Source: Chloroflexota bacterium
GTDB taxonomy: Bacteria; Chloroflexota; Limnocylindria; P2-11E
Reading direction: 5' to 3'
Length of the DNA: 64,000 nucleotides
NCBI GenBank assembly: GCA_005883625.1
Contig: VBDU01000073.1
Location: 42,644-106,643 of the forward strand
Shown here: piece after piece, positions 42,965 to 59,880 of the stretch
How positions within the stretch are numbered: the first letter of the stretch is position 1
Layout: every line of letters begins with the position of its first letter
Program-made: the position numbers and the translations under genes
Notes under the pieces: generated by a model
The model's database searches: none
Told to the model about the DNA's origin: nothing
What the model saw: the letters and a program-made list of their open reading frames with translations, nothing else

Positions 42965-43993
42965 ATGGGAAGGACGCAGCGTGCCACGCTCGGGCTCGCG
43001 CTCGTGGCGGGGCTGCTCATCGCCGCTTGTGGGGGCGGCGGCACGACCACGGCTTCCGGCGCACCACGGGCGAGCGGCGGCCCGCGACTGGGCTCGTTCG
43101 ATCGTCCGATCGTCCTCGCGTTCACGCCGTCGGTGGAGGCCGCGACCATCTCGACCAACGGCGCGGCCATCAAGGCGGCGCTCGAGCGCGCGACCGGCCT
43201 CGCCTGGAAAGTGACCGCGATGACGAGCTATGCGGCAGAGGTCGAAGGCATGTGCTCGGGCGCGATCGACATCGGTTTCTTCGCACCCCTCCAGATGACC
43301 CTCCTGCTCAACAAGCAGTGCGGCACGCCCGTGCTCGCGGCGCTCCGTCGACCCGATCAGACCAAGCCCGAGTCGGCTACGAATCAGCTCAGCCCGACGT
43401 ACGAGTCGCAGATCGTCGTGCGGGTCGACAGCGGCATCAACGACCTGAACGGGCTCAAGGGCAAGAAGTTCGCCTTCGTCGACACCCTCTCGGCGTCCGG
43501 TTACGTCTTCCCGACGCTCACCATCAAGAACAAGACCGGTCAGGATCCCAAGACCTTCTTCGCGTCGAACGGGATCATCTTCGCCGGTGGCCACCCGCAG
43601 GCGGCGCTGGCCGTCTACAACAAGCAGGTCGACGGGGCGGCGATGTACATCGACGCACGCGACCTGGTGGCGGCCGCTAACCCCGACATCAAGACCGCGA
43701 CCAAGGTCATCGAGAAGGCGGGGCCGATCCCGAACGACGGCGTCGCCCTCCGCAAGGGCTTCCCCGACGACCTCGGGAAGCAGGTCACGGGCGCGCTGAC
43801 GGACTACGTCAAGAGCGACGATGGAAAGAAGGTCGTCTACACGCTCTACCAGTGGGACGGCCTGCAGACGGTGGACGCGAAATTCTTCGACCCGATGAAC
43901 GAGGCGGCAAAGCTCGCGGGCGTCGACGTCGAGAAGCTCGCGCAGAACACGCCGCGACCGGCGGCCACGCCGACACCGACGAAGAGCCCCTAG
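42965..43993 (+). CDS. phnD: Phosphate/phosphite/phosphonate ABC transporter substrate-binding protein
   Basis: LLIAACGGGG lipobox; LAFTPSVEAATISTNGAAIKAALERATGLAWKVTAMTSYAAEVEGMCSGAIDIGFFAPLQM; SD AAGGAGGGG. Confidence 0.9.
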   Translation: MGRTQRATLGLALVAGLLIAACGGGGTTTASGAPRASGGPRLGSFDRPIVLAFTPSVEAATISTNGAAIKAALERATGLAWKVTAMTSYAAEVEGMCSGAIDIGFFAPLQMTLLLNKQCGTPVLAALRRPDQTKPESATNQLSPTYESQIVVRVDSGINDLNGLKGKKFAFVDTLSASGYVFPTLTIKNKTGQDPKTFFASNGIIFAGGHPQAALAVYNKQVDGAAMYIDARDLVAAANPDIKTATKVIEKAGPIPNDGVALRKGFPDDLGKQVTGALTDYVKSDDGKKVVYTLYQWDGLQTVDAKFFDPMNEAAKLAGVDVEKLAQNTPRPAATPTPTKSP

Positions 43994-44020
43994 CGACGAT
44001 CCCTTAGGTCGCGAGGAAGA

Positions 44021-44047
44021 GGCCGCCGCGCGAGCGGCGGCCTTTTG
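44021..44047 (+). terminator. Intrinsic terminator between phnD and phnC
   Basis: GGCCGCCGC-GCGA-GCGGCGGCC followed by TTTT. Confidence 0.8.
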
Positions 44048-44070
44048 CTCGTCCCTAGACTCGCTCGCCA

Positions 44071-44940
44071 GTGACCGCGTTCCTGCGGCTCGAGGAGATC
44101 ACGAAGACCTACCCGAGCGGCACGCGCGCGCTGGATGGGATCTCGCTCGACGTCCAGCGCGGCGAGTTCGTCGTCCTCATCGGCCTCTCCGGCTCGGGGA
44201 AGTCGACGCTCCTCCGCTGTATCAACAAGCTGGTCGAGCCGTCGGGCGGGCGCGTGATCCTGGACGGCATCGACGTGACCGCGGCAAAAGGGGCGGAGCT
44301 CCGGCGGATCCGTCGCCGGATCGGGATGATCTTCCAGCAGTTCAACCTCGTCCGGCGCATGTCGGTATTCAGCAACGTCATCGCGGGCCGTCTCGGATAT
44401 CGCTCGATCTGGCGCACCGTTGCCGGGCGCCCCACGCGCACCGATGTCGCCCTTGCCTTCGAGAACCTCGGCCGCGTGGGCATCGCGGATCGCGCGTTCC
44501 AGCGCGCCGACGCCCTCTCCGGCGGCCAGCAGCAGCGCGTCGGTATCGCGCGCGCGTTGATGCAGGAGCCCGACCTCATGCTCGCCGACGAGCCGGTCGC
44601 CAGCCTCGACCCGGCCACGAGCCACTCCGTCATGAAGTACCTCGAGGAGATCAATAAGAAGGACCGGATCACGGTCATCTGCTCGCTCCACTTCCTCTCG
44701 CTCGCGCGCCGCTACGGCAGCCGGGTCATCGCGCTGAAAGCCGGCAAGGTCGCATTCGACGGCCTGCCCGCCGAGATCGACGAGCGCCGCTTCAAGGAGA
44801 TCTACGGCGAGGACGCGGTCGAGGTCGAGATCGGCCCGACGAGCGAAAGCGAGCGAGGAGCGGCTTCGCCGCGACAAGCGAGTCCTCCAGCCTTGAGCGC
44901 GTCTCCTGAGCGCAGCGCAGAGATTGAGCAGGAGCGCTGA
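44071..44940 (+). CDS. phnC: Phosphonate ABC transporter ATP-binding protein
   Basis: [60 protein letters not shown]-terminal tail encoded by dispersed repeat A. Confidence 0.93.
44843..44938 (+). repeat. Dispersed repeat copy A within the 3' end of phnC
   Basis: GAGCGAAAGCGAGCGAGGAGCGGCTTCGCCGCGACAAGCGAGTCCTCCAGCCTTGAGCGCGTCTCCTGAGCGCAGCGCAGAGATTGAGCAGG. Confidence 0.8.
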
Positions 44941-45791
44941 TGGCCGAGTACTTCGTCGCGCGCGGGCTGCCGGTCCCGAGCGAGCTCTCGGCCAATCCGC
45001 TCACGAGGTGGCGCCGCTGGCTCGCCGTGGCGATCGGGCTCCTTGTCATCTACGTCGGCCTGCGCATCACCGACATCGACCTCACCTACGCCAACCCGGA
45101 ATACGCGGGTCGCCAGATCGCGCAGCTCTTCAAGTGGGACTTCTCGATCCTCACGCCGCAGAACGAGTACGAGACCTTCTGGGACACGGCCGAGGGCAAG
45201 ATGATCGAGACGATCTTTCTCGGGATCATCGCGACCGCCTTCTCGATCATCGTCGCCATCCCGCTCTCGTTCCTCGGGGCGCGCAACATCATGGCGGGAC
45301 ATCCCGTCACGGCGGCGATCTACGCGATCGTGCGGCTCATCTTCACGGTGATCCGGTCGATCGACGTGCTCATCGTCGTGATCGTCTTCGCGATCCTCCT
45401 CGGCATCGGCAGCGCGGCGGGCGTGTTCGCGCTCGCGTTCCACAACGTCGGCGTGCTCGGGAAGCTCTACTCGGAGGCGATCGAGGGCATCGACGCCGGG
45501 CCGATGGAAGCGATCAGCGCGACCGGCGCGAACCGATTCCAGGTCGTCTGGACCGCGGTGCTCCCGCAGATCACCAATCCGTACATCTCGTTCACGATCT
45601 ACCGCCTCGACGCGAACGTGCGGCTCGCGCCGATCCTTGGCCTCGTCGGCGGGGGCGGGATCGGGATCCTCCTCTTCCAGTCGATCAACCTGTTCCACTA
45701 CGGCGCGGCGGGGCTGATCATCTTCATGATCGTCGTCACCGTCGCCGCGATGGACTTCTTCAGCGCGCAGGTGCGGAAGCGGCTCGTGTAG
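44940..45791 (+). CDS. phnE: Phosphonate ABC transporter permease
   Basis: ETIFLGIIATAFSIIVAIPLSFLGARNIM, RSIDVLIVVIVFAILLGIG, RLDANVRLAPILGLVGGGGIGILL. Confidence 0.93.
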   Translation: MAEYFVARGLPVPSELSANPLTRWRRWLAVAIGLLVIYVGLRITDIDLTYANPEYAGRQIAQLFKWDFSILTPQNEYETFWDTAEGKMIETIFLGIIATAFSIIVAIPLSFLGARNIMAGHPVTAAIYAIVRLIFTVIRSIDVLIVVIVFAILLGIGSAAGVFALAFHNVGVLGKLYSEAIEGIDAGPMEAISATGANRFQVVWTAVLPQITNPYISFTIYRLDANVRLAPILGLVGGGGIGILLFQSINLFHYGAAGLIIFMIVVTVAAMDFFSAQVRKRLV

Positions 45792-45798
45792 CGGGCGC

Positions 45799-46245
45799 CT
45801 AGCCTGGCCGCTCGCGCGAGAGGTGCTCCGCGAGCTCGTCGGCGCTTCGCAGCCGCCGCGACAGCGTCCGCAGGAGGTCCGCAGCCACGGCCGGATACTG
45901 GATGAGCACGACCGCGATCACGGTGCGATGAAGCTCGAGCGTCCGCGTCGGCGCGAGCGCCGTGACGGTCGCGGTCCGAGCGCCGCCGTCCAGGATGCCG
46001 ACCTCGCCGACGATCTCGTTGGGGCCGAGCTCGGCGAGGACGAGCGGGCCCTCGCGGCCCTCGCCGGCGCGCTCGACGCGCACCCGGCCCGAGAGGATGA
46101 CCTGCATCGTGTCGGAGGGATCGCCCTGGCGCATGAGCGTTTCGCCGGCGGCGAACGTACGCACCTGTCCCCGCTCGACGAGCGCGCGCCGCGCCTCGTC
46201 GCTGACGGTCCGGAACAGCGCGACGCCATCGAGCTCGCGCGCCAC
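45799..46245 (-). CDS. Cyclic nucleotide-binding domain protein
   Basis: LFRTVSDEARRALVERGQVRTFAAGETLMRQGDPSDTMQVILSGRVRVER...GPNEIVGEVGILDGGARTATVTAL. Confidence 0.85.
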   Translation of the reverse strand: MARELDGVALFRTVSDEARRALVERGQVRTFAAGETLMRQGDPSDTMQVILSGRVRVERAGEGREGPLVLAELGPNEIVGEVGILDGGARTATVTALAPTRTLELHRTVIAVVLIQYPAVAADLLRTLSRRLRSADELAEHLSRERPG

Positions 46246-47279
46246 TAGGGCCCCCACGCCGGACGGCTCTCGCCGTCCAGGCCCTCGCCGCGTGTGAGCT
46301 TCACCGGTTGCCTGGGCAGGCCGCCGCTCAGCACCTCGCCGAGGTCCATCGCGAACAGGTCGATGGAGCCGTTCTGCTCCCGCAGAAAGGCGACCTGGCG
46401 GCCATCCGGCGAGAAGACGCCGTTCCAGCTGCGTCCGTCGGTCGTGAGCGCGATGTCGCGCGCCCGGCTCAGCTGCGCGAGGTGCAGGTCGTTGTTCCCG
46501 CCGTGACGCAGCGTGTAGAGGATCCAGTCGCCGTCGGGCGAGTACGCGGGCCGGTAGGGCTCTCCGTTCGGCACGATCTTGAACGGGTTCGCGGCGCGGC
46601 CGTCGGCGGCCACGAGCAGCAGCCGGGGCGCGCCGAGCGTGTACGAGGTGACGGCGATGGTCTTCCCATCGGGCGACCACGCCGGGTCCGAGAGGTTGGA
46701 GCCCTGGGAGAGCGTCGTCATGCGCCGGCCGCTCTGGGCGTCGTAGAGCGCGAGGTCGGAGACGCCGTCGCCGACGTCGAACGTCACCGCGATCCGCTTT
46801 CCGTCCGGCGACAGCGCCGGGGCGTTGAACCAGGTCACCTCGTGGAACCCGCTCTGCGCGCGGACCAGCCCGCTCACGACGACCGTCTCGGGTCCGCCGG
46901 CCGCGTCCTTCCGCACGATGTTCGTGAACCGTAGGAGCGCCGGCACGACCTGGCCGTCGACCACGCGCCTCCCGTCGATCTGCTCGGTCCGCGAGAAGAC
47001 GACGGTCTTCCCGTCCGTGGAGACGTTTGGTTGCAGCGATCGTCCCTCGGAAGTGAGCGGGACGTAGCCGCCGCCGGAGAGCACGTACACGTCGCCGCGC
47101 AGGACGAACGCGATCGTACCGCTGACGCGCGGTGCTTCGACGCGCTCGACGGGCTTCGTCGGCGTCGGCGTCGGGCTCGCAGCCGGGACGAGCAGCGGCG
47201 CCACGCGCGATCCGAGCGACGCGTAGATCACGACGAGGCCGAGCGCGACGAGCACGTACACGGCCTCGCGGAGCTTCAT
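46245..47279 (-). CDS. TolB-like beta-propeller protein
   Basis: DPAWSPDGKTIAVTSY, PAYSPDGDWILYTLRHGGNNDLHLAQLSRARDIALTTDG, GVFSPDGRQVAFLRE. Confidence 0.8.
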   Translation of the reverse strand: MKLREAVYVLVALGLVVIYASLGSRVAPLLVPAASPTPTPTKPVERVEAPRVSGTIAFVLRGDVYVLSGGGYVPLTSEGRSLQPNVSTDGKTVVFSRTEQIDGRRVVDGQVVPALLRFTNIVRKDAAGGPETVVVSGLVRAQSGFHEVTWFNAPALSPDGKRIAVTFDVGDGVSDLALYDAQSGRRMTTLSQGSNLSDPAWSPDGKTIAVTSYTLGAPRLLLVAADGRAANPFKIVPNGEPYRPAYSPDGDWILYTLRHGGNNDLHLAQLSRARDIALTTDGRSWNGVFSPDGRQVAFLREQNGSIDLFAMDLGEVLSGGLPRQPVKLTRGEGLDGESRPAWGP

Positions 47280-47818: not shown

Positions 47819-47836
47819 GGACCGATCGTAGGGCGC

Positions 47837-48841
47837 TCAGTGGAGGAAGATCGGGTCCCCGTAGTTGAAGCCCGCCGTCTGCGCCTTCACGACGACCGCG
47901 GCATCCTGGACGGAGACGACGAAGAAGGTGCCCATCGCGATGAACGCGATCCTCGTGCTGTCGGGCGACCACGCCGGGGTGACGTCGTCCATCGTCGTCG
48001 TGATCGATCGCAGGCTCGTCCCGTCGAGCGGCGCGACGTAGAGCTCCGACGGGATGTCGAGATGCGCGAGCCGGCCCCCGTTGCCGCCCGCGACGGGGGG
48101 GCCGACGGGAACTGCAGACGTCCGGCCCGCGGACGACCAGGTGAGCTCACGACCGTCCGGGGAGACGCGCGGCGCCTGCAGCCACCAGAATCGATCGCCG
48201 GTCTTCAGCAGAGGCTGTGGCTTCGATCCGTCGGTGCCGATCGTGTAGAGGCCGGCCTGCTGGCCGCGGTCGATCCGCACGTAGACGAGGGTCTTGCCGT
48301 CCGGGAGGACCGCGGGCTCGGCGCCGTCCGACAGCACCTTCTGGCGCTCGCCCGTGCGCAGGTCGAGGCGCTCGATCCGGTCCTCGGTCTCGAGGTAGAC
48401 GCCCGGGTTGTTCGCCTCCTGCTTCGCGGCGCGGCGGTGCACGTACATCACGTTGCCCGACGCCTCGAAGGATGGACTGGCGTAGAAGACGTCCGGCCCC
48501 TCACGAGTGATGACAGCCCGCAGGTCCGTGCCGTCGACGTTCACGCTGTAGATATCGGACCCGAAGCCGAGTCCCTCGAGCGTCTGCGAGAGCGCGAAGA
48601 AGATCCTGCCGCTCGGATGGAGCACCGGCGCGCTCGGGACGGCGCCTTTCGGCAAGGTCGCGATGCGTCCGATGATCTTTCCCGCCGCGTCGAGGCCGAC
48701 GAGTCCCGCCGGCGTCGCGATCGCGAACGTCGAGCGCGTGCCGATGCCGACCTCGTTCGGGATCGCGGACTGGGGTCCGTTCTGCGGCGCGCTCTGGCAT
48801 CCCGCGAGGCCAAGCGCGAGCAGGACCGCGAGTGCTCTCAT
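47837..48841 (-). CDS. TolB-like beta-propeller lipoprotein
   Basis: MRALAVLLALGLAGCQSAP lipobox; APVLHPSGRIFFALS, PAWSPDSTRIAFIAMG. Confidence 0.8.
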   Translation of the reverse strand: MRALAVLLALGLAGCQSAPQNGPQSAIPNEVGIGTRSTFAIATPAGLVGLDAAGKIIGRIATLPKGAVPSAPVLHPSGRIFFALSQTLEGLGFGSDIYSVNVDGTDLRAVITREGPDVFYASPSFEASGNVMYVHRRAAKQEANNPGVYLETEDRIERLDLRTGERQKVLSDGAEPAVLPDGKTLVYVRIDRGQQAGLYTIGTDGSKPQPLLKTGDRFWWLQAPRVSPDGRELTWSSAGRTSAVPVGPPVAGGNGGRLAHLDIPSELYVAPLDGTSLRSITTTMDDVTPAWSPDSTRIAFIAMGTFFVVSVQDAAVVVKAQTAGFNYGDPIFLH

Positions 48842-48860
48842 GCACACCTCACTTGCGAAT

Positions 48861-48885
48861 GGGGCCGGCGACGGGCGCCGGCCCC
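48861..48885. terminator. Strong intergenic hairpin
   Basis: GGGGCCGGCG-ACGGG-CGCCGGCCCC; follows the LVIVD-1 stop on the minus strand. Confidence 0.55.
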
Positions 48886-48899
48886 TTCTCGCTGTCAGC

Positions 48900-50642
48900 T
48901 CACCTGTACGGCGCACAGGGCTCGTAGCCGGGTGCGGTGACGCTCGGATTGTGCGAGATGCAAAGGCCCTTGGCGGGGATCTCGTTCGCGTGGGGCCCGG
49001 TGTACTTGAGCACGTACACGCCCATGTTCTCGTCCGAGTACACGATGTGGCCGTTCATGGCGATCGGGTAGCTCCGGGCGAAGACGTCGGGCGGAAGCAG
49101 CTGCTTGGTGCGGACCGGCACGCCTTCGGCGTCGACCTCCGGATCCGCGCACGGACCGGCGGCGCCTTCGGCGCACCATTTCACCTCGGGGGCCGGCCGG
49201 TTGAAGAAGAAGCCGAGCTCGAACGGACTCTGCGGGTTCGTGATGTCGACGGCACGGAGGCCGCCTCCGTACCACGTCGCGAAGAGGACGCTCGGCAGTG
49301 CGAGCGCGTTGTGGACGGTCTTGGAGCTGCGCATGATGTCGGTCCCGTAGATCCCCGTCGCCGCCGTCGTGGGCGGGATCTGGTCACCCTGCTTCGGGCA
49401 GCGGTCGGGGTTCTGCTCGGGGAGCGCGAACGTGCCGGCGTTCCTGGGGAAGAGATCCCCGCGGAACGAGCCGACCGAGCCGGCGCCGCCGGGAGCGACG
49501 AGCTGCCCCGTGGCGCGGTCGTACGTCGAGAAGCCGTCGGTGCCGATGTACGCGAAGGTGATGCCGCCGAACGGGCAGGCGTGTCCTTCGTGCTGGAGCG
49601 CGACGTACGGCCGGCCCGGGATCTTCACCACACCGTGCACGTTCGCCACCTCGGTGCCGAACGCCGCGAGCGGCTTGAAGTCCGGGAAGACCGAGAGGCA
49701 GTGACCCGCCTCGTTCTTGCTCTTCGCCGGAGACACGTCGCACGAGCGGCCCTCGGCGATCGCCGAGCTGTCGATCTGCAGGTAGCCGTACTTGGTCTGC
49801 GCGAGATGCATGCGCTTGCCGTCGAGCGACCACGTCACGTCGTGGGTCTGCGTGTTGTCGACGCGCGTGCCGCCCTCGTACTTGGTCGTGACGTTCGCGG
49901 GGACGCCGAGCTGCGCGCGCAGGCCCCACTCGCCGGCGAGCTTCGGGTTACAGCTCTTGGGGCAGCCCGTGAGGTCGTACACGCGGATGTCGACGCCGTC
50001 CTCCGGCACGCCGCTGTTGAAGGTCACCGAGGCGAACACGCGGTCCGCCTTGTTCGGGTCGCGCCACAGCGTCATGTAGTGGAGGAAGTCGTTCTGCGGG
50101 ATGTTGATCTTGGAGACGATCTGCGGCTTCTGGCAGTCGGTCGCGTCGTAGACGACGAGGCCGACGTTCTTGTCCTCGGCCGAGACGATCGGCTTCCATT
50201 TCCCGATGCCGAACGGCGCGCGGACCGAGTTCACGAGAAGGTTGAGGTCGCCGACCGCCTCGATCGCCTCGATCCCCATGCCCTTCCCCTTGATGCCGGG
50301 CACCTCACCCACGATGGTCGGCTTGCTCATGTCCTTCATGTCGAGGATGAGCGTGGGCTGAAGGTCGATGTTGCTCCCGACGTACAGGCAATCACGGATG
50401 GCGGTGATGCCGCCGTTCATGCCGCGCGGCAGGTTGAGCTTCGGGTCGATCAGCGGGTTCGAGCCGACCAGCGTGAAGTTCTTCATCTGGCCGCCGGACG
50501 GGATCTTGTCGACCGCGGTGCGCGGCTGGACGCCGGTGTATTCGGTGCTGGGCTGCGAGCAGGCGGCCGCGACGAGAAGCGCGACCGGTGCGAGAAGCAG
50601 CCATCTCCCAAGACGTGAGGGCGCGCGCGGACGCTCGGCCAT
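48900..50642 (-). CDS. LVIVD-repeat-type beta-propeller lipoprotein, paralog 1
   Basis: LLLAPVALLVAAACSQPS lipobox; NVGLVVYDATDCQKPQIVSKI, GGGLRAVDITNPQSPFELGFFFNRP, YVLKYTGPHANEI. Confidence 0.85.
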   Translation of the reverse strand: MAERPRAPSRLGRWLLLAPVALLVAAACSQPSTEYTGVQPRTAVDKIPSGGQMKNFTLVGSNPLIDPKLNLPRGMNGGITAIRDCLYVGSNIDLQPTLILDMKDMSKPTIVGEVPGIKGKGMGIEAIEAVGDLNLLVNSVRAPFGIGKWKPIVSAEDKNVGLVVYDATDCQKPQIVSKINIPQNDFLHYMTLWRDPNKADRVFASVTFNSGVPEDGVDIRVYDLTGCPKSCNPKLAGEWGLRAQLGVPANVTTKYEGGTRVDNTQTHDVTWSLDGKRMHLAQTKYGYLQIDSSAIAEGRSCDVSPAKSKNEAGHCLSVFPDFKPLAAFGTEVANVHGVVKIPGRPYVALQHEGHACPFGGITFAYIGTDGFSTYDRATGQLVAPGGAGSVGSFRGDLFPRNAGTFALPEQNPDRCPKQGDQIPPTTAATGIYGTDIMRSSKTVHNALALPSVLFATWYGGGLRAVDITNPQSPFELGFFFNRPAPEVKWCAEGAAGPCADPEVDAEGVPVRTKQLLPPDVFARSYPIAMNGHIVYSDENMGVYVLKYTGPHANEIPAKGLCISHNPSVTAPGYEPCAPYR

Positions 50643-50707
50643 GCCTTTCCCCTCTCCTGTGAAAAGGTGACGGGTCGCCCCCGCCACCCTCTCACATCAC
50701 GTGCGGT

Positions 50708-52456
50708 CTACGGAGACCAGGTCTTGTACGGCGCGCACGGCTCGAAGCCGGGCGTGACGACGTTCGGGTTGTGCGAGATGCAGAGGCCCGTCTGCGGGAG
50801 CTCGTTCGCGTGGGGACCGGTGTACTTGAGCACGTAGATCCCCGAGTTCTCGTCGTAGTAGACGATGTGGCCGTTCATGAGGATCGGATAGCTCCGTGCG
50901 AAGACGTCGGGCGGAAGCAGCTGCTTCACACGGACCGGCACGCCTTCGGCGTCCAGCTCGGGCTTGTCGCACGGGCCGGCCGACCCCTCGGAGCAGTAGC
51001 GGACCTCGGGCACCGGCTTGTTGAAGAAGTAGCCGAGCTCGAACGGCGAGGATGGGTTGGTGATGTCGATGGCCCGAAGACCGGCGCCGTACCAGGTCGC
51101 GAAGAGCACGCTTGGGAACGCGAGCGCGTTGTGGACGGTCTTGGAGCTGCGCATGACGTCGGCGCCGTAGATGCCGGTCGCCGCCGTCGTCGGCGGGATC
51201 TGGTCACCCTGCCTGGGGCAACGGTCGGGGTTCTGCTCGGGGATCGCGAACGTCCCGACGTTGCGCGGATAGAGATCTCCACGGAACACGCCGACCGAAC
51301 CGGCGCCGCCGGGAGCGACGAGCTGGCCGGTCTGGCGGTCGTAGGTCGAGAACGTGTCCTTGTCGCCGATGTACGCGAACGTGATCCCGCCGAACGGGCA
51401 GGCGTGCCCTTCGTGCTGGATGGCCACGTACGGCCGGCCGGGGATGCTCACCACTCCGTGGACGTTCGCCACTTCCGTGCCGAACGCCGCGAGCGGCTTG
51501 AAGTCCGGAAGAACGCTCAGGCAGTGACCCGCCTCGGTCTTGCTCTTCGCCGGCGAGGGGTCGCACGAGCGGCCCTCGGCGAGCGCCGAGCTGTCGATCT
51601 GCAGGTAGCCGTATTTGGTCTGCGCGAGGTGCATCCGGCGACCGTCAAGCGACCAGGTCACGTCGTGGGTCTGGGTGTTGTCGACCCGGGTGCCGCCCTC
51701 GTACTTGGTCGTGACGTTCGCGGGGATGCCGAGCTGGGCGCGCAGGCCCCACTCGCCCGCGAGCTTGGGGTTGCACGACTTCGGGCAGCCGGTGAGGTCC
51801 CAGACGCGGACGTCGACGCCGTCCTCGGGGACACCGCTGTTGTAGGTCACCGAGACGAAGACGCGGTCCGGCTTGTTTGGATCGCGCCAGAGGGTCATGT
51901 AGTGGAGGAACGTGTTCTTGACGTCGATCTTGGAGACGATCGTGGGCTTCTTGCAGTCGGTCGCGTCATAGACGACGAGCCCGACGTTCGTGTCGGCCGG
52001 CGCCACCTTGGGAGGCGCTTCGGTCCAGCCCTTGGAGTTGCGGGCCGTGTTGACGAGGAGGTTGAGGTCGCCGACCGCCTCGATCGCCTCGATCCCCATG
52101 CCCTTCCCCGCGATGCCGGGCACCTCGCCCACCACGGTCGGCTTGGTCAGGTCCTTCATGTCGAGAATCAAGGTCGGCTGGTACGCGATGCTGCTGCCGG
52201 CATAGAGGCAGTCACGGATCGCCGTGATGCCGCCGCCCATGCCGCGCGGAAGATTGAACTTCGGATCCAGCAGCTGGTTCTGGCCGACCAGCTGGAAGTT
52301 CTTCATCTCGCCGCCCGAGGGGATCTTCTCGATCGGCGTGCGGGGCTGCGAGCCGGTGTACGTCACGGGTCCCTGGGAACACGCGGAGACGACGAGCAAC
52401 GCGAGTGGCGCGAGCGACAGGAGCCTTGACCAACGCGGGACATGCACAACCTGCAT
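50708..52456 (-). CDS. LVIVD-repeat-type beta-propeller lipoprotein, paralog 2
   Basis: LLSLAPLALLVVSACSQGP lipobox; near-identical blocks with paralog 1; SD GGAAGAGGAGGAAGC before ATG 52456. Confidence 0.85.
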   Translation of the reverse strand: MQVVHVPRWSRLLSLAPLALLVVSACSQGPVTYTGSQPRTPIEKIPSGGEMKNFQLVGQNQLLDPKFNLPRGMGGGITAIRDCLYAGSSIAYQPTLILDMKDLTKPTVVGEVPGIAGKGMGIEAIEAVGDLNLLVNTARNSKGWTEAPPKVAPADTNVGLVVYDATDCKKPTIVSKIDVKNTFLHYMTLWRDPNKPDRVFVSVTYNSGVPEDGVDVRVWDLTGCPKSCNPKLAGEWGLRAQLGIPANVTTKYEGGTRVDNTQTHDVTWSLDGRRMHLAQTKYGYLQIDSSALAEGRSCDPSPAKSKTEAGHCLSVLPDFKPLAAFGTEVANVHGVVSIPGRPYVAIQHEGHACPFGGITFAYIGDKDTFSTYDRQTGQLVAPGGAGSVGVFRGDLYPRNVGTFAIPEQNPDRCPRQGDQIPPTTAATGIYGADVMRSSKTVHNALAFPSVLFATWYGAGLRAIDITNPSSPFELGYFFNKPVPEVRYCSEGSAGPCDKPELDAEGVPVRVKQLLPPDVFARSYPILMNGHIVYYDENSGIYVLKYTGPHANELPQTGLCISHNPNVVTPGFEPCAPYKTWSP

Positions 52457-52624
52457 GCTTCCTCCTCTTCCTTCCGGCCGGACGCCAAGCAAAGGTTTTC
52501 CGACCGGACCCCAAACGCTCGACGCCATACTGCTCTGACCTGTCAATGCGCGCCCACCGGGCGTTGGTCTTCCAGCGGCGGGCAGGTGAACAGGGCTTGA
52601 TCCATCCCGGGACAGGACAAAGCG

Positions 52625-52662
52625 CGGCCGGGCTGGCGGGCCGATCCCGCCAGCCCCGGCCG
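52625..52662. terminator. Strong hairpin downstream of LVIVD paralog 3
   Basis: GGCCGGGCTGGCGGG-CCGAT-CCCGCCAGCCCCGGCC (one bulge). Confidence 0.6.
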
Positions 52663-52669
52663 GATCAGA

Positions 52670-54334
52670 TCACTTGTACGGTGCGCACGGCTCGTAGCCG
52701 ACGCTCACGACGCTCGGGTTGTGCGCGATGCAGATGCCCTGCTTCGGGATCTCGCTCGCGTGCGGACCCGTGTACTTCAGGACATAGACGCCGTTGTTCG
52801 AATCCGCGTACACGAGGTAGCCGTTCATCGCGATCGGGTAGCTCCGCGCGATGATCTCGGGCGGGAGCGTTCCCTGCTGCCGGATGGGGATCCCTTCACC
52901 GTCGACCTCCGCGTCCTTGCAGCCCGCACCCTGACACCAGCGGACCTCCTGCGGCGGCTTGTTGAAGAAGTAGCCGAGCTCGAAGGGCATGTACGGGTTC
53001 GTGATGTCGATAGCCCGCAGGCCGCCGGAGTACCACGTCGCGAACATGACGTTCGGGAACGCCATGAGGTTGTGGATGCCGCCGTTGAAGTTCGGGTTGA
53101 GACCGCTCGCGGCATCGGGGTCGCCGTTCTGACCGCACCGGTCCACCTGATCTTCGGGCAGGCCGAATTCCGAGACAACCTTGGGAAAGAGATCTCCGCG
53201 GAGCTGGCCCTGACCGGGCGCGATCGCTCCGGGCGCGTACGTCTCGGTCGTTCCGACGTACACCATCTGGATGCCGCCATACGGGCAGCCACTCGAGGGC
53301 TCGTGCTGGACGGCCACGTACGGCCGGCCGGGGACCTTGACGATGCCGTGCGTGTGCGCGGCGCCGATCCCGTACGGTTGCACGCGGGCCGACAGGTCAG
53401 GATTCAGCACGCTGAGGCAGTAGCCGGTCGCTACCGCGGTCGTCGGCGATTTCGGGTTGCACGACTGGCCTCTCGCGAGCGCGCTGCTGTCGAGCTGGAA
53501 GTAGCCGAAGTGCATCTGCGCGACGTGCAGCCGTGTCCCGTCGATCGACCACGTCGCGTCGTGGGTGACGGTCGTCTTCGTGATCTTCCCGCCTTCGTAC
53601 GCCACTTCGAGCCGTTGCGGGATCCCGAACTGGGCACGAAGGCCCCATTCCGCGACCTGCTTGGGGCTGCAGCTCTTCGGGCAGCCGGTCAGGTCGAAGA
53701 CGCGGAGGTCGATCCCGTCGGCGGTGCCGTTGCAGCAGTAGTTCACGTCGACGAGGACGCGGTCGGGCTTGGCCGGATCGCGCCACAGCGTCATGTAGTG
53801 GATCAGGTCGCTCCCCACGTCGACCTTGGCGACGATCGTGGGCTTGCGGCAGTCGGTCGCGTCGTAGACGACGAGACCGATGTTCTTGTCCGCCGTGGCG
53901 ATCCGCTTCGCGTCGCCCCCGCGCGCCGTGACGACGAGCAGGTTCAGATCGGCGACGCCTTCGATCGCTTCCACGCCCATTCCTTTGAAGGCGATGCCGG
54001 GTACCTCGCCGACCACCGTCGGCTTCGTCATGTCCTTCATGTCGACGATCAAGGCCGGCTGGTAGCCAATGTTCGAGCCGACGTAGAGGCAATCGCGGAT
54101 CGCGGTGATGCCGCCGTTCTGTCCCCGCGGCAGGTTGTACTTCGGATCGAGCAGCGGGTTGTTCGCGATGAGCTCGAAGTTCTTCAGCTGACCGCTCGCC
54201 GGGATGTCCTTGACGGGCGTCCGCGGCTGCGGCCCGTTGTAGGCCGTGGGTTGCGAACATGCCGTTGCCACAAGGATCGCGATCGGTAGGAGCAGCCAGA
54301 TCGTGCGGTGCGCAGGATGAACGAAAGCAGCCAA
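52670..54334 (-). CDS. LVIVD-repeat-type beta-propeller lipoprotein, paralog 3 (most diverged)
   Basis: TIWLLLPIAILVATACSQPT lipobox; TTG start behind GAAGGAGGGGGAA; same Cys-motif order as paralogs 1 and 2. Confidence 0.85.
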   Translation of the reverse strand: MAAFVHPAHRTIWLLLPIAILVATACSQPTAYNGPQPRTPVKDIPASGQLKNFELIANNPLLDPKYNLPRGQNGGITAIRDCLYVGSNIGYQPALIVDMKDMTKPTVVGEVPGIAFKGMGVEAIEGVADLNLLVVTARGGDAKRIATADKNIGLVVYDATDCRKPTIVAKVDVGSDLIHYMTLWRDPAKPDRVLVDVNYCCNGTADGIDLRVFDLTGCPKSCSPKQVAEWGLRAQFGIPQRLEVAYEGGKITKTTVTHDATWSIDGTRLHVAQMHFGYFQLDSSALARGQSCNPKSPTTAVATGYCLSVLNPDLSARVQPYGIGAAHTHGIVKVPGRPYVAVQHEPSSGCPYGGIQMVYVGTTETYAPGAIAPGQGQLRGDLFPKVVSEFGLPEDQVDRCGQNGDPDAASGLNPNFNGGIHNLMAFPNVMFATWYSGGLRAIDITNPYMPFELGYFFNKPPQEVRWCQGAGCKDAEVDGEGIPIRQQGTLPPEIIARSYPIAMNGYLVYADSNNGVYVLKYTGPHASEIPKQGICIAHNPSVVSVGYEPCAPYK

Positions 54335-54418
54335 TTCCCCCTCCTTCGGCCTGCCGGGTGCGTTCAGACCACCGGCGCGTCCGGTCCGGCCGATTCTGTT
54401 CCTGCGGTCAAATCCCCG

Positions 54419-55462
54419 TCAGGGGAGCCGCGCGAACCAGAGAAGCGAGGCGCATGCGGCGCCGAGCAGGAGCGCCGCGGCGAGCGCCGCGAACGCGACC
54501 GTGATCTCGGACCGCTCGTCGCGAAGGACGAGCTCGGTCGCGAGGTTCGTGTAGATCTGCTGAAGGTCCGACTCGCTCTGCGCGTTGAAGTACTTCGCGC
54601 CCGACGCCTCGGCGATCTTCCGGAGCGTCGCCTCGTCGAGCTCGGAGCGCGCCGACCGCCCCTCGTTCTTGACGAGCGCGCCCTCCGGCGTCCCCACGCC
54701 CACCGTGTACACACGGATGCCCAGGTTCGCCGCCCGATCGATGACGCTGAGCGGCGGCGGGCTCTGGTTGTTCTCGCCATCTGTGAGCAGGACGATGCTC
54801 GCGGTCGCGAACTGACCCTTCGCGAGCGGCTTTGGCGTCGGCTTCGGCGTGCGTCCGGGCAGGGTCTGCTGGCTCGTGGACTGCTGATCGTCCGGGTCGC
54901 CGGGCGCGACGTCCTGGCCCTCGTAGATCGCGTCGAGCGAGACGATGATCGCCTTGCCGAGCGCGGTCGATCGCTGCGGCTTGAGGCGATCGATGGCATC
55001 GATGAGCGCCGTCCGGTCGAGCGTCGGACCCATGACGACCTGCGCGTTGTCGGAGAACGTGACCACGCCGATGCGAACGTTGTTCTTCGCCAGGCGCTGC
55101 TGCTCGACGAAGGTCTTCGCGGCCTCCTTCGCCGCTTCCATGCGGTTGGGCTTGACGTCGTCGGCGGCCATGCTCCCCGAGACGTCGATCGCCAGGATCA
55201 CGGTCCCCTCGACGCCGGGGACCTTCACGAGCATGGCCGGGCGCGCGATCGCGAGGACGAGCGCGGTGAACCCGAGGAGGAACAGAGCGGGCGGGACGTG
55301 GCGGCGGATGCCCGGTCCCGGCCCGACCGCCGTCCGGACCATCTGCAGGCTCGCGTAGCGCAGCGCGTAGCGCCGGCGCCGACGCTGGACGAAGACGTAC
55401 GCGAAGAGGAGCGCGGCCACAACGGCGAGCAGCCAGAGGTTGCCCGGCCACTGGAATTCCAT
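54419..55462 (-). CDS. VWA-domain (BatA-like) membrane protein
   Basis: VILAIDVSGSMAADDVKPNRMEAAKEAAKTFVEQQ; TASIVLLTDGENNQSP; TM segments at both ends. Confidence 0.85.
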   Translation of the reverse strand: MEFQWPGNLWLLAVVAALLFAYVFVQRRRRRYALRYASLQMVRTAVGPGPGIRRHVPPALFLLGFTALVLAIARPAMLVKVPGVEGTVILAIDVSGSMAADDVKPNRMEAAKEAAKTFVEQQRLAKNNVRIGVVTFSDNAQVVMGPTLDRTALIDAIDRLKPQRSTALGKAIIVSLDAIYEGQDVAPGDPDDQQSTSQQTLPGRTPKPTPKPLAKGQFATASIVLLTDGENNQSPPPLSVIDRAANLGIRVYTVGVGTPEGALVKNEGRSARSELDEATLRKIAEASGAKYFNAQSESDLQQIYTNLATELVLRDERSEITVAFAALAAALLLGAACASLLWFARLP

Positions 55463-55475
55463 CGCTACCGCTCGC

Positions 55476-56357
55476 TCAGAACGGCGCCGCGCCGGCGGCG
55501 GATGCGGCGGCGTCGATCGGCACGGCGAAGCCGAGGCCCGAGACGCCGTTGAGGCTGGGGCCTCCGGTCACGATCGCGACGACCTCGCCTTTGCTGTTGA
55601 CGAGCGCGCCGCCGGAGCTCTCCGGATAGAGCGTCGCGTCGAACTGGATGAGGCCGCCGAGCCGCTGCCCGGGCCACGGGGGCTCGAAGGTGCTGCCGAG
55701 CTTCGAGATCACCCCGACCGTGAGAGAGTTCTGCTGGCCGAGCGGGCTGCCGACCACGATCGCTTGATCGCCGACCTTGAGATCCTTCGCGCTCGCGAGC
55801 GTCGCGGGCTTGCGCCCGAACGATCCGAGCTCGAGCACCGCGACGTCGAACTCCGCTTGGGAGTCGCCGAGCACCGCGGCCCACTCCTCACCATCGAAGA
55901 ACACGACTTTGATCTCCGCCGCGTCGCGCAGGATGTGCAGGCTCGTGAGGATCCGGCCCCCCGAGTCGAGAAGGACGCCGGAGCCGCGCGCTCGAACCGC
56001 CGTCTCGTCGGCGGAGCGTGTCTTCACGAGCACCATCGACTCCTTGACCGCCTGGTACGCGGCGATCGCGACGTTCGGCTTGGGCGTCGCCGACGCCAGC
56101 GCCGTCTTGATGGCGTCGTTGACCTCTCGCTCGGTGATCCGTTGTGGCGCGGGCACGAGCGCGTTCGTGATGCCGATGACGGCGAGCGTCCCGAGGATGC
56201 TCACGAGGACGAGCTGCGCGTTTCGAGTCCGGCCGGCGAGCCGTCGGAGCGTGCCGCGGACGTCGAGGCGGCGCCGCGCTGGATCTGGTGCCTCCTCCGG
56301 CGCATCGCCGTGAAAGAAGGTGCCATACGGGCGATCGGCCTTGGATCGGCGCACCAT
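55476..56357 (-). CDS. Trypsin-like (HtrA/S1C-type) serine protease, membrane-anchored
   Basis: LTSLHILRDAAEIKV (His), FDVAVLELG (Asp), LYPESSGGALVNSKGEVVAI (Ser). Confidence 0.85.
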   Translation of the reverse strand: MVRRSKADRPYGTFFHGDAPEEAPDPARRRLDVRGTLRRLAGRTRNAQLVLVSILGTLAVIGITNALVPAPQRITEREVNDAIKTALASATPKPNVAIAAYQAVKESMVLVKTRSADETAVRARGSGVLLDSGGRILTSLHILRDAAEIKVVFFDGEEWAAVLGDSQAEFDVAVLELGSFGRKPATLASAKDLKVGDQAIVVGSPLGQQNSLTVGVISKLGSTFEPPWPGQRLGGLIQFDATLYPESSGGALVNSKGEVVAIVTGGPSLNGVSGLGFAVPIDAAASAAGAAPF

Positions 56358-56387
56358 CGCGGTGAGTCTAGGCGGCGACCAAAAGCA

Positions 56388-57887
56388 TCAAGGCGCGAAA
56401 CCGGCGGCACGAAGCGCATCGCGCGCGGTGGCCGCCTCGTCGTAGGGGCGCTTCGTCTCGCCGACGATGATCGAGCTTTCGTGCCCCTTGCCTGCGAGAA
56501 GCACCGTGTCGTCGGGCTGGGCGCGGCGGATCGCCTCGGCGACGGCCTCGCGTCGGTCGTCGATGACGAGGTAATCGCTTCCGCGCTTCTTCCCGGCCGA
56601 GACCGCGCCCGCCTCGATCTCCGCGAGGATGGTCGCCGGGTCCTCGAGCCGCGGATCTTCCTGCGTGAGCACGAACAGGTCGGCGTGCCTCGCCGCGATC
56701 TCCGCGAGCGCGGGTCGCTTCGCTCGGTCGCGCTCGCCGGCGCTCCCGAAGACCGCGATGAGCTTGCCGCGCGTGAGCGGCCGCAGCAGGCCGAGCACCT
56801 TGTCGAGCGACTCCGGCGTGTGCGCGTAGTCGACGATCACGCTGAACGGCTGTCCGCAGTCGACGCGCTCCATGCGGCCGCGGACCGCCTTCGCGCGAGC
56901 GAGCGCGTCGCGCGCCTGCGCCAGCGTCGCGCCCGCCGCGAGGCCCGCCGCGGCGGCGGCGAGTGCGTTGTGCACGTTGAAGCGGCCGACGAGCGGCAGC
57001 GGCACCTCGACCGAGGCTCCCGCCGAGGCGATGCGGACCCGCGAGCCGGACGCATCCGACGCGAGGATCGTCCCCTGCACGTCCGCGTGCGCGTCGATCG
57101 CGTACGTGAGGACTCGGGCGCCGCCGGCGCGGTCCGCCAGGTACCGCCAGCGCGGGTCGTCGGCGTTGAGGACGGCGGTCTTCGGCACGCCCTTGTCGGC
57201 GGAGCGCGCGAGCATGCTGAAGAGCTCCGCCTTCGTCTCGAGGTAGCGCTGGAGCGTCCCGTGGAAGTCGAGGTGCTCCGGCGAGAGGTTCGTGAAGACG
57301 GCGACGTCGACCTCGCAGCCGCGCAGCTTCCGCAGCGCGAGCGCGTGGCTCGTGGCCTCGAGCACGCCCCACGTCCCCCCGGCCACGAGGAGCTCGGCGA
57401 AGAACTCCTGCACCTCGACGGCCTCCTGGGTGCTCTGCCGCGTCTCGTTCTCCCAGACGTGCCCGACCTGCTTGAAGTCGACTGTCGTGGCGAAGCCGGT
57501 ACGTTCGCCGGCGGCCTCGAGGACATCCGACACGAGATGCACCGTCGTCGTCTTACCGTCGGTCCCCGTGACGGCTGCGAGCTTGAGCCGCCGGGTCGGG
57601 TGGTCGAAGAACTCGCTCGCGAGGTCGGCGAGCGCGATGCGCGAGTCCGCGACGACCGCCACCGGGACGCCCACGGGCACGTCGCGCTGGGCGACGACCG
57701 CGACGGCGCCGCGCGCGGCCGCGTCGGCGGCGAAGTCGTGTCCGTCCCGATGGAAGCCCTCGACCGCGACGAAGAGGCCGCCCTCGCGGACCCGACGCGA
57801 GTCGTACGCGATCGAGCGGACGTCGCGTTCGCCGGCCCCCTCGGGCACGGGGATCCGCGCCGCACGGAACAGCGCCTCGAGCCTCAT
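56388..57887 (-). CDS. murE: UDP-N-acetylmuramyl-tripeptide synthetase
   Basis: VTGTDGKTTTVHLVSDVL, EATSHALALRKLRGCEVDVAVFTNLSPEHLDFHG, VIVDYAHTPESLDKVLGLLRP; start reassigned to 57887. Confidence 0.92.
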   Translation of the reverse strand: MRLEALFRAARIPVPEGAGERDVRSIAYDSRRVREGGLFVAVEGFHRDGHDFAADAAARGAVAVVAQRDVPVGVPVAVVADSRIALADLASEFFDHPTRRLKLAAVTGTDGKTTTVHLVSDVLEAAGERTGFATTVDFKQVGHVWENETRQSTQEAVEVQEFFAELLVAGGTWGVLEATSHALALRKLRGCEVDVAVFTNLSPEHLDFHGTLQRYLETKAELFSMLARSADKGVPKTAVLNADDPRWRYLADRAGGARVLTYAIDAHADVQGTILASDASGSRVRIASAGASVEVPLPLVGRFNVHNALAAAAAGLAAGATLAQARDALARAKAVRGRMERVDCGQPFSVIVDYAHTPESLDKVLGLLRPLTRGKLIAVFGSAGERDRAKRPALAEIAARHADLFVLTQEDPRLEDPATILAEIEAGAVSAGKKRGSDYLVIDDRREAVAEAIRRAQPDDTVLLAGKGHESSIIVGETKRPYDEAATARDALRAAGFAP

Positions 57888-58900
57888 CCGGCGGCCCGGC
57901 CCCGAAGCCGGAGGGCGGCGGTGTAGACCGGCTCGGCGAGGCGATACGCGCGGTAGGCGAGCTCGTTCGCAACGGCGTCGTGCGCCCCGACGAAACGCCG
58001 GGGCGCGCCGCCGAAGCCCTTCTTGAAGTGGTAGGGCCCCTGCATCGGGTCGTCCTTTCGCGACAGGTCCGCCGGGATGCCGCCGAAGTCGAACCGCTTC
58101 GCGCCGCTCGTCTTCGCCTCGATGATGCAGCGCCACAGGAGCGCGTATGCCGCGTACGCCGACCGGCCCTCGGCGTTCGTCGCCGCCGTCTGGTAGACCT
58201 CGCGCTCGCCGCAGCGCCAGGTCATCGCCGCCGCGACCGCCCGGCCTTCGCGGACGCCCAGCCGCACGCGCGCGTGCCCGGCGCCCACCAGCGTCCCCCA
58301 CATCGCGCGGTAGTACTCCCAGGTCCGCGTGATGAACCCCGCGCGCGCGCCGGTCTGCGCGTAGAGGTCGTAGAACGCGCGCAGGTCCGTGTCGCCGTCG
58401 GCGTCGCGGATGCCGACGCCGCGCTTCTCCGCGTGGCGCACGCTCCAGCGCGTGTCCTTGTCGAGGCCACGCAGGAGCGCGTCCTCGTCCGCCGACAGAT
58501 CGAGCTCGAGCGTCGCGACCACCGGCTGCACGTCCGGCGCGCGCCGAAAGCCCGCCGCCCGGAGCGCGCCGCCGGCCTCCTCGGCCGTGAGCTCGGGGTC
58601 GGCCTTCACGAAGAGTGCCCCGCGCTCGCGCGCGAGCGTCGCGAGGCCGGCGAGGGCGGTGCGCAGCGCCGCCGCGTCGCCGGGCGGCGCGATCGGTCCG
58701 CGCGGGACGTACGCGAGGGCGCGCCCGGCCGGAAGCGGACGCCAGAGCACGAGCGCGCACGGGAGCGCATCGCCGAAGCGCAGGAACTCGGCCCGCCAGC
58801 CCTGCGCCTCGCGGATCTCGGCCCACGCCGCCGACTGGAGCACGTGGCCCGTGGGAGATCTCACCGCGGCGTCATCCCAGCTCGCCGGTGCGGCGCTCAA
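57884..58900 (-). CDS. FemABX-family aminoacyltransferase 1
   Basis: HVLQSAAWAEIREAQGW, KDTRWSVRHAEKRGVGI, KRFDFGGIPADLSRKDDPMQGPYHFKKGFGG; TTG start overlapping the TGA of the upstream gene. Confidence 0.85.
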   Translation of the reverse strand: MSAAPASWDDAAVRSPTGHVLQSAAWAEIREAQGWRAEFLRFGDALPCALVLWRPLPAGRALAYVPRGPIAPPGDAAALRTALAGLATLARERGALFVKADPELTAEEAGGALRAAGFRRAPDVQPVVATLELDLSADEDALLRGLDKDTRWSVRHAEKRGVGIRDADGDTDLRAFYDLYAQTGARAGFITRTWEYYRAMWGTLVGAGHARVRLGVREGRAVAAAMTWRCGEREVYQTAATNAEGRSAYAAYALLWRCIIEAKTSGAKRFDFGGIPADLSRKDDPMQGPYHFKKGFGGAPRRFVGAHDAVANELAYRAYRLAEPVYTAALRLRGRAAG

Positions 58901-59880
58901 AGCCGCGCGGCCGCGAGGCGCCGGCGCGCACCGAGCTGCCACAGCGGGAACAGCGGACGCACGACCGGCGTCTCGAGGAGGCCGATCCATTCGACGATCT
59001 CGCCGCCGAACCCGAGCTTGAAGTTCTCCACGCCGGCGAGGGCATCCTCCGGGCCTTCCGCCAGCCCCCACATGTCGTAGCGCCGCACGCCGAGCTGTCG
59101 CATCCGCAGCAGCGAGCGCCACTTCAAGAGATAGAACGGCCGCGACTCGGCGTGCGCGCCGCTCCAGCCGCCGAAGAGCTCCCACGCGCGATCGGCGATG
59201 CGCACCACGAGGAGGGTGCCGGCGTCCTCGTCGCCGACGCGCGCGACGAGCAGGTGCATGCGCTCGCCGAACGCGTCACGCAGCGTCCGGAAATATCCGA
59301 GGTCGTGGATCGCGAAGCGGTCGCGCTCCCCGACGATGCGCAGGATCCGGTGGAAGCGCTCGAGGTCCGTCGTCTCCTCGGTGGCGACGCCCTCACGCTC
59401 CGCCTTGCGGATGTACTGCCGCGTCTTTCGGCGCATCGCCGCAAGCAGCTCGTCCGGCTCGCGCGAGGGATCGAGGAGAAGCGTGCGGCGCGGCTGCACG
59501 AACACGGAAGACCGCGAGACGCCGGCCTCGGCCAGCGCCGCACGGAGCGTGGGATCGTCGGGCTGTTCGGGATCGCAGATGAGGGCCAGCGTGCGATGCC
59601 GCGCGGCGACGGTGCGGAGCGCGCCGATCGCCGCGGGCAGGTCGGCGGGCTCGCAGATCGGACCGCGCGACGCGTAGGCCACGGCGAGCCCGCCCGCGCC
59701 GCGCCGGACGAGGAGCTGCGCCAGGCCACGACGGCCCCGGTCGTCCTCAAGGACGTAGCGCTCGGCGATCCAGCCGGTGGCCTCCTTGAGCCGCGCCCAG
59801 CCCGACGATTGGAGGAGGTGCGGGCGGCCCGTCGCTTCCACGAGCGCGTCCCATTCCCGCGCCCCCTCGGGCGCGGGCAC
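58897..59880 (-). CDS. FemABX-family aminoacyltransferase 2
   Basis: HLLQSSGWARLKEATGW, RKTRQYIRKAEREGV, RRYDMWGLAEGPEDALAGVENFKLGFGG. Confidence 0.85.
   Translation of the reverse strand: MPAPEGAREWDALVEATGRPHLLQSSGWARLKEATGWIAERYVLEDDRGRRGLAQLLVRRGAGGLAVAYASRGPICEPADLPAAIGALRTVAARHRTLALICDPEQPDDPTLRAALAEAGVSRSSVFVQPRRTLLLDPSREPDELLAAMRRKTRQYIRKAEREGVATEETTDLERFHRILRIVGERDRFAIHDLGYFRTLRDAFGERMHLLVARVGDEDAGTLLVVRIADRAWELFGGWSGAHAESRPFYLLKWRSLLRMRQLGVRRYDMWGLAEGPEDALAGVENFKLGFGGEIVEWIGLLETPVVRPLFPLWQLGARRRLAAARL

Follow-up and report, generated by a model that had tools for sequence, protein, structure and literature searches.

The window analysed here, a 64,000-nucleotide stretch from a Chloroflexota bacterium (GCA_005883625.1, contig VBDU01000073.1, 42,644-106,643 of the forward strand), contains three consecutive genes, P1, P2 and P3, whose products are homologous over most of their length to Sb-PTE, the phosphotriesterase/haloalkylphosphorus hydrolase of Sphingobium sp. 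TCM1 (PDB 5HRM, 5IOJ). They and a fourth copy, found on contig C99 of the same genome, would encode anchored, disulfide-stapled, seven-bladed metallo-propeller hydrolases that act extracellularly and were gained by way of an insertion cassette. We give this reading, which is built from sequence comparison, a probability of about 0.5.

The initial annotation described these genes as a tandem triplication of Cys-rich, LVIVD-type lipoproteins of about 550-580 aa. All three are indeed intact, full-length open reading frames of that size on the same strand (Table 1), with likely starts chosen from ribosome-binding sites and a lipobox at the N-terminus (LVAAAC in P1, LVVSAC in P2, LVATAC in P3), and every motif named for the family is present in each, in identical order. 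The division into a close pair and a diverged third gene also holds: P1 and P2 are 82% identical at the amino acid level, while each is 59% identical to P3. Two loops found in P1 and P2 are missing from P3. On inspection, all five members of the family (these three, the C99 copy and a single copy in Chloroflexi bacterium CF_147) begin with the hydrophobic segment ending in A-C (residues 21-28) that is characteristic of bacterial lipoproteins, and the products of P1-P3 and of the C99 copy would be exported as such and anchored at the membrane.

In a draft genome of 129 contigs, a run of similar genes might reflect an assembly artefact or decaying duplicates. Yet the reading frames are intact, the junctions of the insertion that carries the genes are clean, a related module occurs in the independent genome of CF_147, and even the closest pair, P1 and P2, differs at 18% of nucleotides. 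By the NG86 method, dN/dS is about 0.31 for P1-P2, 0.43 for P1-P3 and 0.49 for P2-P3, and with values of 0.3-0.5 in every pair, all three genes are under purifying selection. At synonymous sites the divergence amounts to 0.47 for the P1-P2 pair and to 0.7-0.8 when either is compared with P3; combined with dN/dS, this identifies the genes as duplicates that are old and under selection, not copies created by assembly. Assembly error, a danger named at the outset, is ruled out at the sequence level by the P1/P2 divergence and the clean junctions, and the chance that artefact or decay accounts for the cluster is negligible.

Table 1. Features of the propeller gene cluster and its surroundings (window coordinates)
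Feature	Position	Strand	Remarks
P1, Cys-rich LVIVD-superfamily propeller lipoprotein	48900..50642	-	580 aa; ATG start at 50642
P2, paralog	50708..52456	-	582 aa; ATG start at 52456
P3, diverged paralog	52670..54334	-	554 aa; TTG start at 54334; groups with C99 copy
Insert, 8.57 kb	47819..56387	.	between MurE and AAA_33 kinase gene; empty site in 10 relatives
PD40/TolB-like propeller lipoprotein	47837..48841	-	downstream insert end; syntenic beside CF_147 single copy
BatA/VWA protein	54419..55462	-	in insert; 68-69% identical to one beside CF_147 copy
HtrA/DegP-like serine protease	55476..56357	-	upstream insert end; syntenic in CF_147
PhnD-PhnC-PhnE phosphonate/phosphate ABC transporter set	42965-45791	+	converges on propeller genes; outside insert

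Profile-profile comparison (hhalign) of the family scored 99.8% against four Chloroflexota propellers of 513-528 aa, 99.7% against choice_anch_B-type proteins, and 97.3% against Sb-PTE plus a Novosphingobium relative (E 2e-11, 386 columns); among the controls, 30 column-shuffled Sb-PTE profiles reached at most 2.1% and TolB-type propellers 2.0%. A phmmer search of P1 against all PDB chains returned Sb-PTE as the best matches (5hrm and 5ioj, E 0.003), and a same-phylum relative also matches Sb-PTE (E 5.5e-10). This colinear homology firmly places P1-P3 in the LVIVD/choice-of-anchor-B/Sb-PTE propeller superfamily. The LVIVD-type label therefore stands at the level of the superfamily, with a shared blade motif (WYxxGLRxxDIxNPxxPxELG) and the His/Glu set described below, but not at the level of the curated models, since nothing in Pfam or NCBIfam scores above its cut-off: against the Pfam LVIVD model (PF08309, gathering score 20.2 bits) P2 scores 13.9 bits and neither P1 nor P3 is listed, and against choice_anch_B (TIGR04312, trusted cut-off 100 bits) the proteins score 20.4-20.6 bits (E about 2e-4). 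Judged by these scores, P1-P3 is homologous to, yet outside, the curated choice-of-anchor B family. The Sb-PTE homolog has no NCBIfam model listed for it either. AlphaFold2, run from four sequences, gave a mostly stranded model with a pLDDT of 39, so the proposed fold, a seven-bladed beta-propeller whose blade anchors were located by alignment alone, rests on homology.

The four Chloroflexota propellers are the nearest outside relatives found, at 25-29% identity. They share with the family three Cys (C83, C168 and C413), five of the six putative metal ligand positions and the C-terminal pattern SYPI..DGLIY.AD.N.GLYVL.Y.GPH, but they differ from it in having Arg in place of E123, in lacking both the extra Cys and the lipobox, and in ending with a tail rich in Pro and Ser and a hydrophobic C-terminal segment. 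The prospect that the family might prove to belong to a known enzyme family is partly realized, in that a characterised relative exists, but it is distant. Sb-PTE, the one solved and characterised relative found in this analysis, is likewise secreted but only about 21% identical, and its H545 is replaced by R521 in the family, which adds four Cys pairs and a lipoprotein anchor.

Sb-PTE is a flame-retardant-degrading enzyme that acts on man-made phosphotriesters. Its metals are reportedly bound by E201, H258, H317, H389, E407 and H475, which we take to be the ligands of a binuclear site, and its disulfides are presumably C146-C242, C411-C443 and C542-C559. A full-length Sb-PTE homolog from a Sphingobium plasmid (NZ_CP022749), which was aligned with 25 other sequences, has every one of these residues at the expected number; its gene (L084, 3665-5416) is annotated as a hypothetical protein, with IS6100 about 0.6 kb downstream. 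In the multiple alignment, P2 residues E123, H185, H264, H333, E349 and H442 align to the presumed ligands, and none of the six columns varies among the five family members. Over the 26 sequences, the H258, H317, H389 and E407 columns are conserved at 100% and the H475 column at 93%, beside structural G, P and D. Separate profile alignments reproduce five of the six pairings when made with the nearest relatives and four when made directly with Sb-PTE, where E123 and H442 are unaligned or shifted; support for these two pairings comes from the multiple alignment and by way of intermediate families. The ligand residues fall at an equivalent place in successive blades. A metal site formed by conserved propeller His and Glu is likely on this evidence: the central channel would hold one or two metals, probably as a binuclear site, and a metal-activated water would attack an ester outside the cell, as in Sb-PTE, be it a phosphate ester, a carboxyl ester or a lactone. 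Two further, distant LVIVD-type proteins are encoded in the same genome, on contigs C4 (L010, 295-1788) and C56 (L011, 1336-2982), one a lipoprotein and one Tat-type; L010 keeps the four His and the E407 positions, and in L011 the residue aligned to H475 is Asn.

That said, most of this largely uncharacterised superfamily carries the same His/Glu set, which may therefore be a signature of the fold, or of a metal site, and leave the reaction catalysed unspecified. It is possible, though somewhat unlikely, that these proteins are non-catalytic surface propellers of the LVIVD type, serving as binding or adhesion scaffolds in which the His/Glu cluster is structural or holds a structural metal. The first descriptions of LVIVD repeats came from cell-surface proteins of archaea and bacteria (PMC2447325), the His/Glu set is common to proteins whose anchors and added parts differ widely, and the VWA and TolB-like proteins encoded next door are of kinds that typically mediate interactions. 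Still, four His and one Glu are nearly the sole invariants besides turn G, P and D at about 20% identity, which exceeds what a scaffold would need, and the sole characterised homolog is a metalloenzyme. We favor the hydrolase reading, in which the P1-P3 family probably acts as an extracellular hydrolase.

The initial annotation counted about a dozen conserved Cys and suggested disulfides or metal or haem sites. Thirteen Cys are invariant in the five members, the lipobox Cys and 12 in the mature protein; P3 carries two extra, vicinal Cys (residues 200-201) found in no other copy. In the 26-sequence alignment, Sb-PTE Cys146/242 and Cys411/443 align to invariant family Cys, so two of its three Cys pairs are kept, and the third (542/559) is missing. 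The eight other invariant Cys fall into four local pairs (C224/C228, C298/C312, C488/C496 and C559/C574) that are unique to the Cys-rich family within the sampled sequences and absent from every sampled TIGR04312/PF08309 member. The even number of Cys and the match of two pairs to presumed Sb-PTE disulfides support the assignment of these residues as disulfides. The twelve mature Cys would form about six, two of them ancestral (C83-C168 and C353-C413) and the four local ones new, stapling surface loops.

Twelve invariant Cys in a mature protein could also be read as belonging to a Cys-based haem or metal protein for electron transfer, but a motif scan of the five proteins turned up no CxxCH, the haem motif of c-type cytochromes, and no CxxC, only one CxxxC in each. 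Haem sites are unsupported because CxxCH is missing, and the scan led us to reject haem or Fe-S sites built on Cys. The even count, the local pairing and the two pairs shared with an extracytoplasmic homolog also argue against such a role, as does the absence of cytochrome or redox partner genes next to the propeller genes, and we regard it as highly improbable. Of the functions first suggested for the Cys, then, disulfides survive and haem does not, and the likely metal site would be built from propeller His and Glu, not Cys.

Three features of the family had gone unnoticed at first: the C99 copy, the single copy in CF_147, and the location of the cluster on a discrete 8.57 kb insert. By nucleotide alignment, the borders of this insert are the MurE stop codon (56388-56390) and the start of the AAA_33 kinase gene (47818), and between them lie the genes for the HtrA-like protease, the BatA/VWA protein, P3, P2, P1 and the TolB-like lipoprotein. 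Ten relatives have the 0.54 kb kinase gene alone between MurE and a TolB-like gene (window 46245-47279); in the window, the latter two are 9.1 kb apart. The GC content of the insert is 67.7%, versus 69.7-70.9% in the flanks, and no recombinase gene was seen in this insert or in that of C99. The same order of four genes, with a single propeller gene, recurs in CF_147 on another contig, and the MurE-kinase site of that genome is empty. Both the window's genome (contig C82, 58%) and CF_147 also retain a second VWA gene of the ordinary type. The propeller gene would have arrived on an HtrA - VWA - propeller - TolB-like lipoprotein cassette and then been copied several times. Beside MurE, two adjacent genes (57884-59880) were identified by eye as encoding GNAT/FemX-like, peptidoglycan-type aminoacyltransferases.

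About 3 kb from the propeller genes lies a transporter set in which PhnC and PhnE pass NCBIfam cut-offs and PhnD passes a broader phosphate/phosphite/phosphonate model. As the nearest solved relative is a phosphotriesterase, the two could be parts of a phosphorus-scavenging set, the propellers releasing phosphorus compounds that PhnDCE imports. The transporter genes, however, lie outside the insert and on the opposite strand, DNA at the PhnE end (45501-45811) adjoins the empty site in six of the ten relatives without propellers, and the CF_147 propeller has no adjoining Phn gene. The adjacency is thus probably coincidental, and we consider a scavenging partnership quite unlikely; as a conserved association, the link was rejected on the CF_147 context and the empty-site alignments. 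No substrate-specific gene neighbor is conserved.

The C99 copy (L008, 1392-3377) is full length, 71% identical to P2, and constitutes a roughly 2 kb single-gene insertion that four genus members lack at the same flanks. Among 177 class genomes searched, one other carrier emerged, CF_147, of a different genus in the same family as the window's species; the Cys-rich family was not found in about 175 other class genomes, ten species congeneric with the window's also lack it, and a 400-genome sample of the phylum held distant relatives only. DNA-pattern scans of 84,980 GTDB species genomes, which more diverged members could escape, returned CF_147 only. One weak Rhizobium match came from a plasmid scan, and none from viral contigs searched with two alignments for further family sequences. 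The GTDB isolate name of CF_147, 14_0929_05_30cm, is taken to denote a 30 cm soil sample.

The phylogeny recasts the history originally proposed. P3 is sister to the C99 copy (support 98/98 in one set and 88/96 in another), and a single clade of P1, P2 and P3 is rejected (p-AU 0.008). The genes do stand in tandem, but a simple tandem triplication is rejected. Since four copies exist, at least three duplications are needed, not the two first supposed, with a dispersed copy involved, and P3 is no mere outlier of the trio. The root among P1/P2, CF_147 and P3/C99 is not fixed by the tree.

To our knowledge, LVIVD/choice-of-anchor-B propellers occur widely, and hardly any of them has been characterised. 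A bolder proposal, which we hold to be doubtful, is that the Cys-rich proteins, as metallohydrolases anchored to the cell and stapled by disulfides, form a new subfamily, related to Sb-PTE, that travelled from one Chloroflexota genus to another on an HtrA-VWA-propeller-TolB cassette lacking an integrase and was amplified to four diverging copies in one species. If true, the Sb-PTE metal site would be an old and widespread environmental catalyst, not a recent invention. The 8.57 kb insertion offers a small, well-bounded example of the entry of surface proteins into soil Chloroflexota genomes. Few non-structural positions in the whole superfamily are nearly invariant, and the ligand residues belong to them; by tying the Cys-rich branch to the metal-site residues of Sb-PTE, the comparison makes the question of whether LVIVD propellers are metallohydrolases directly testable.
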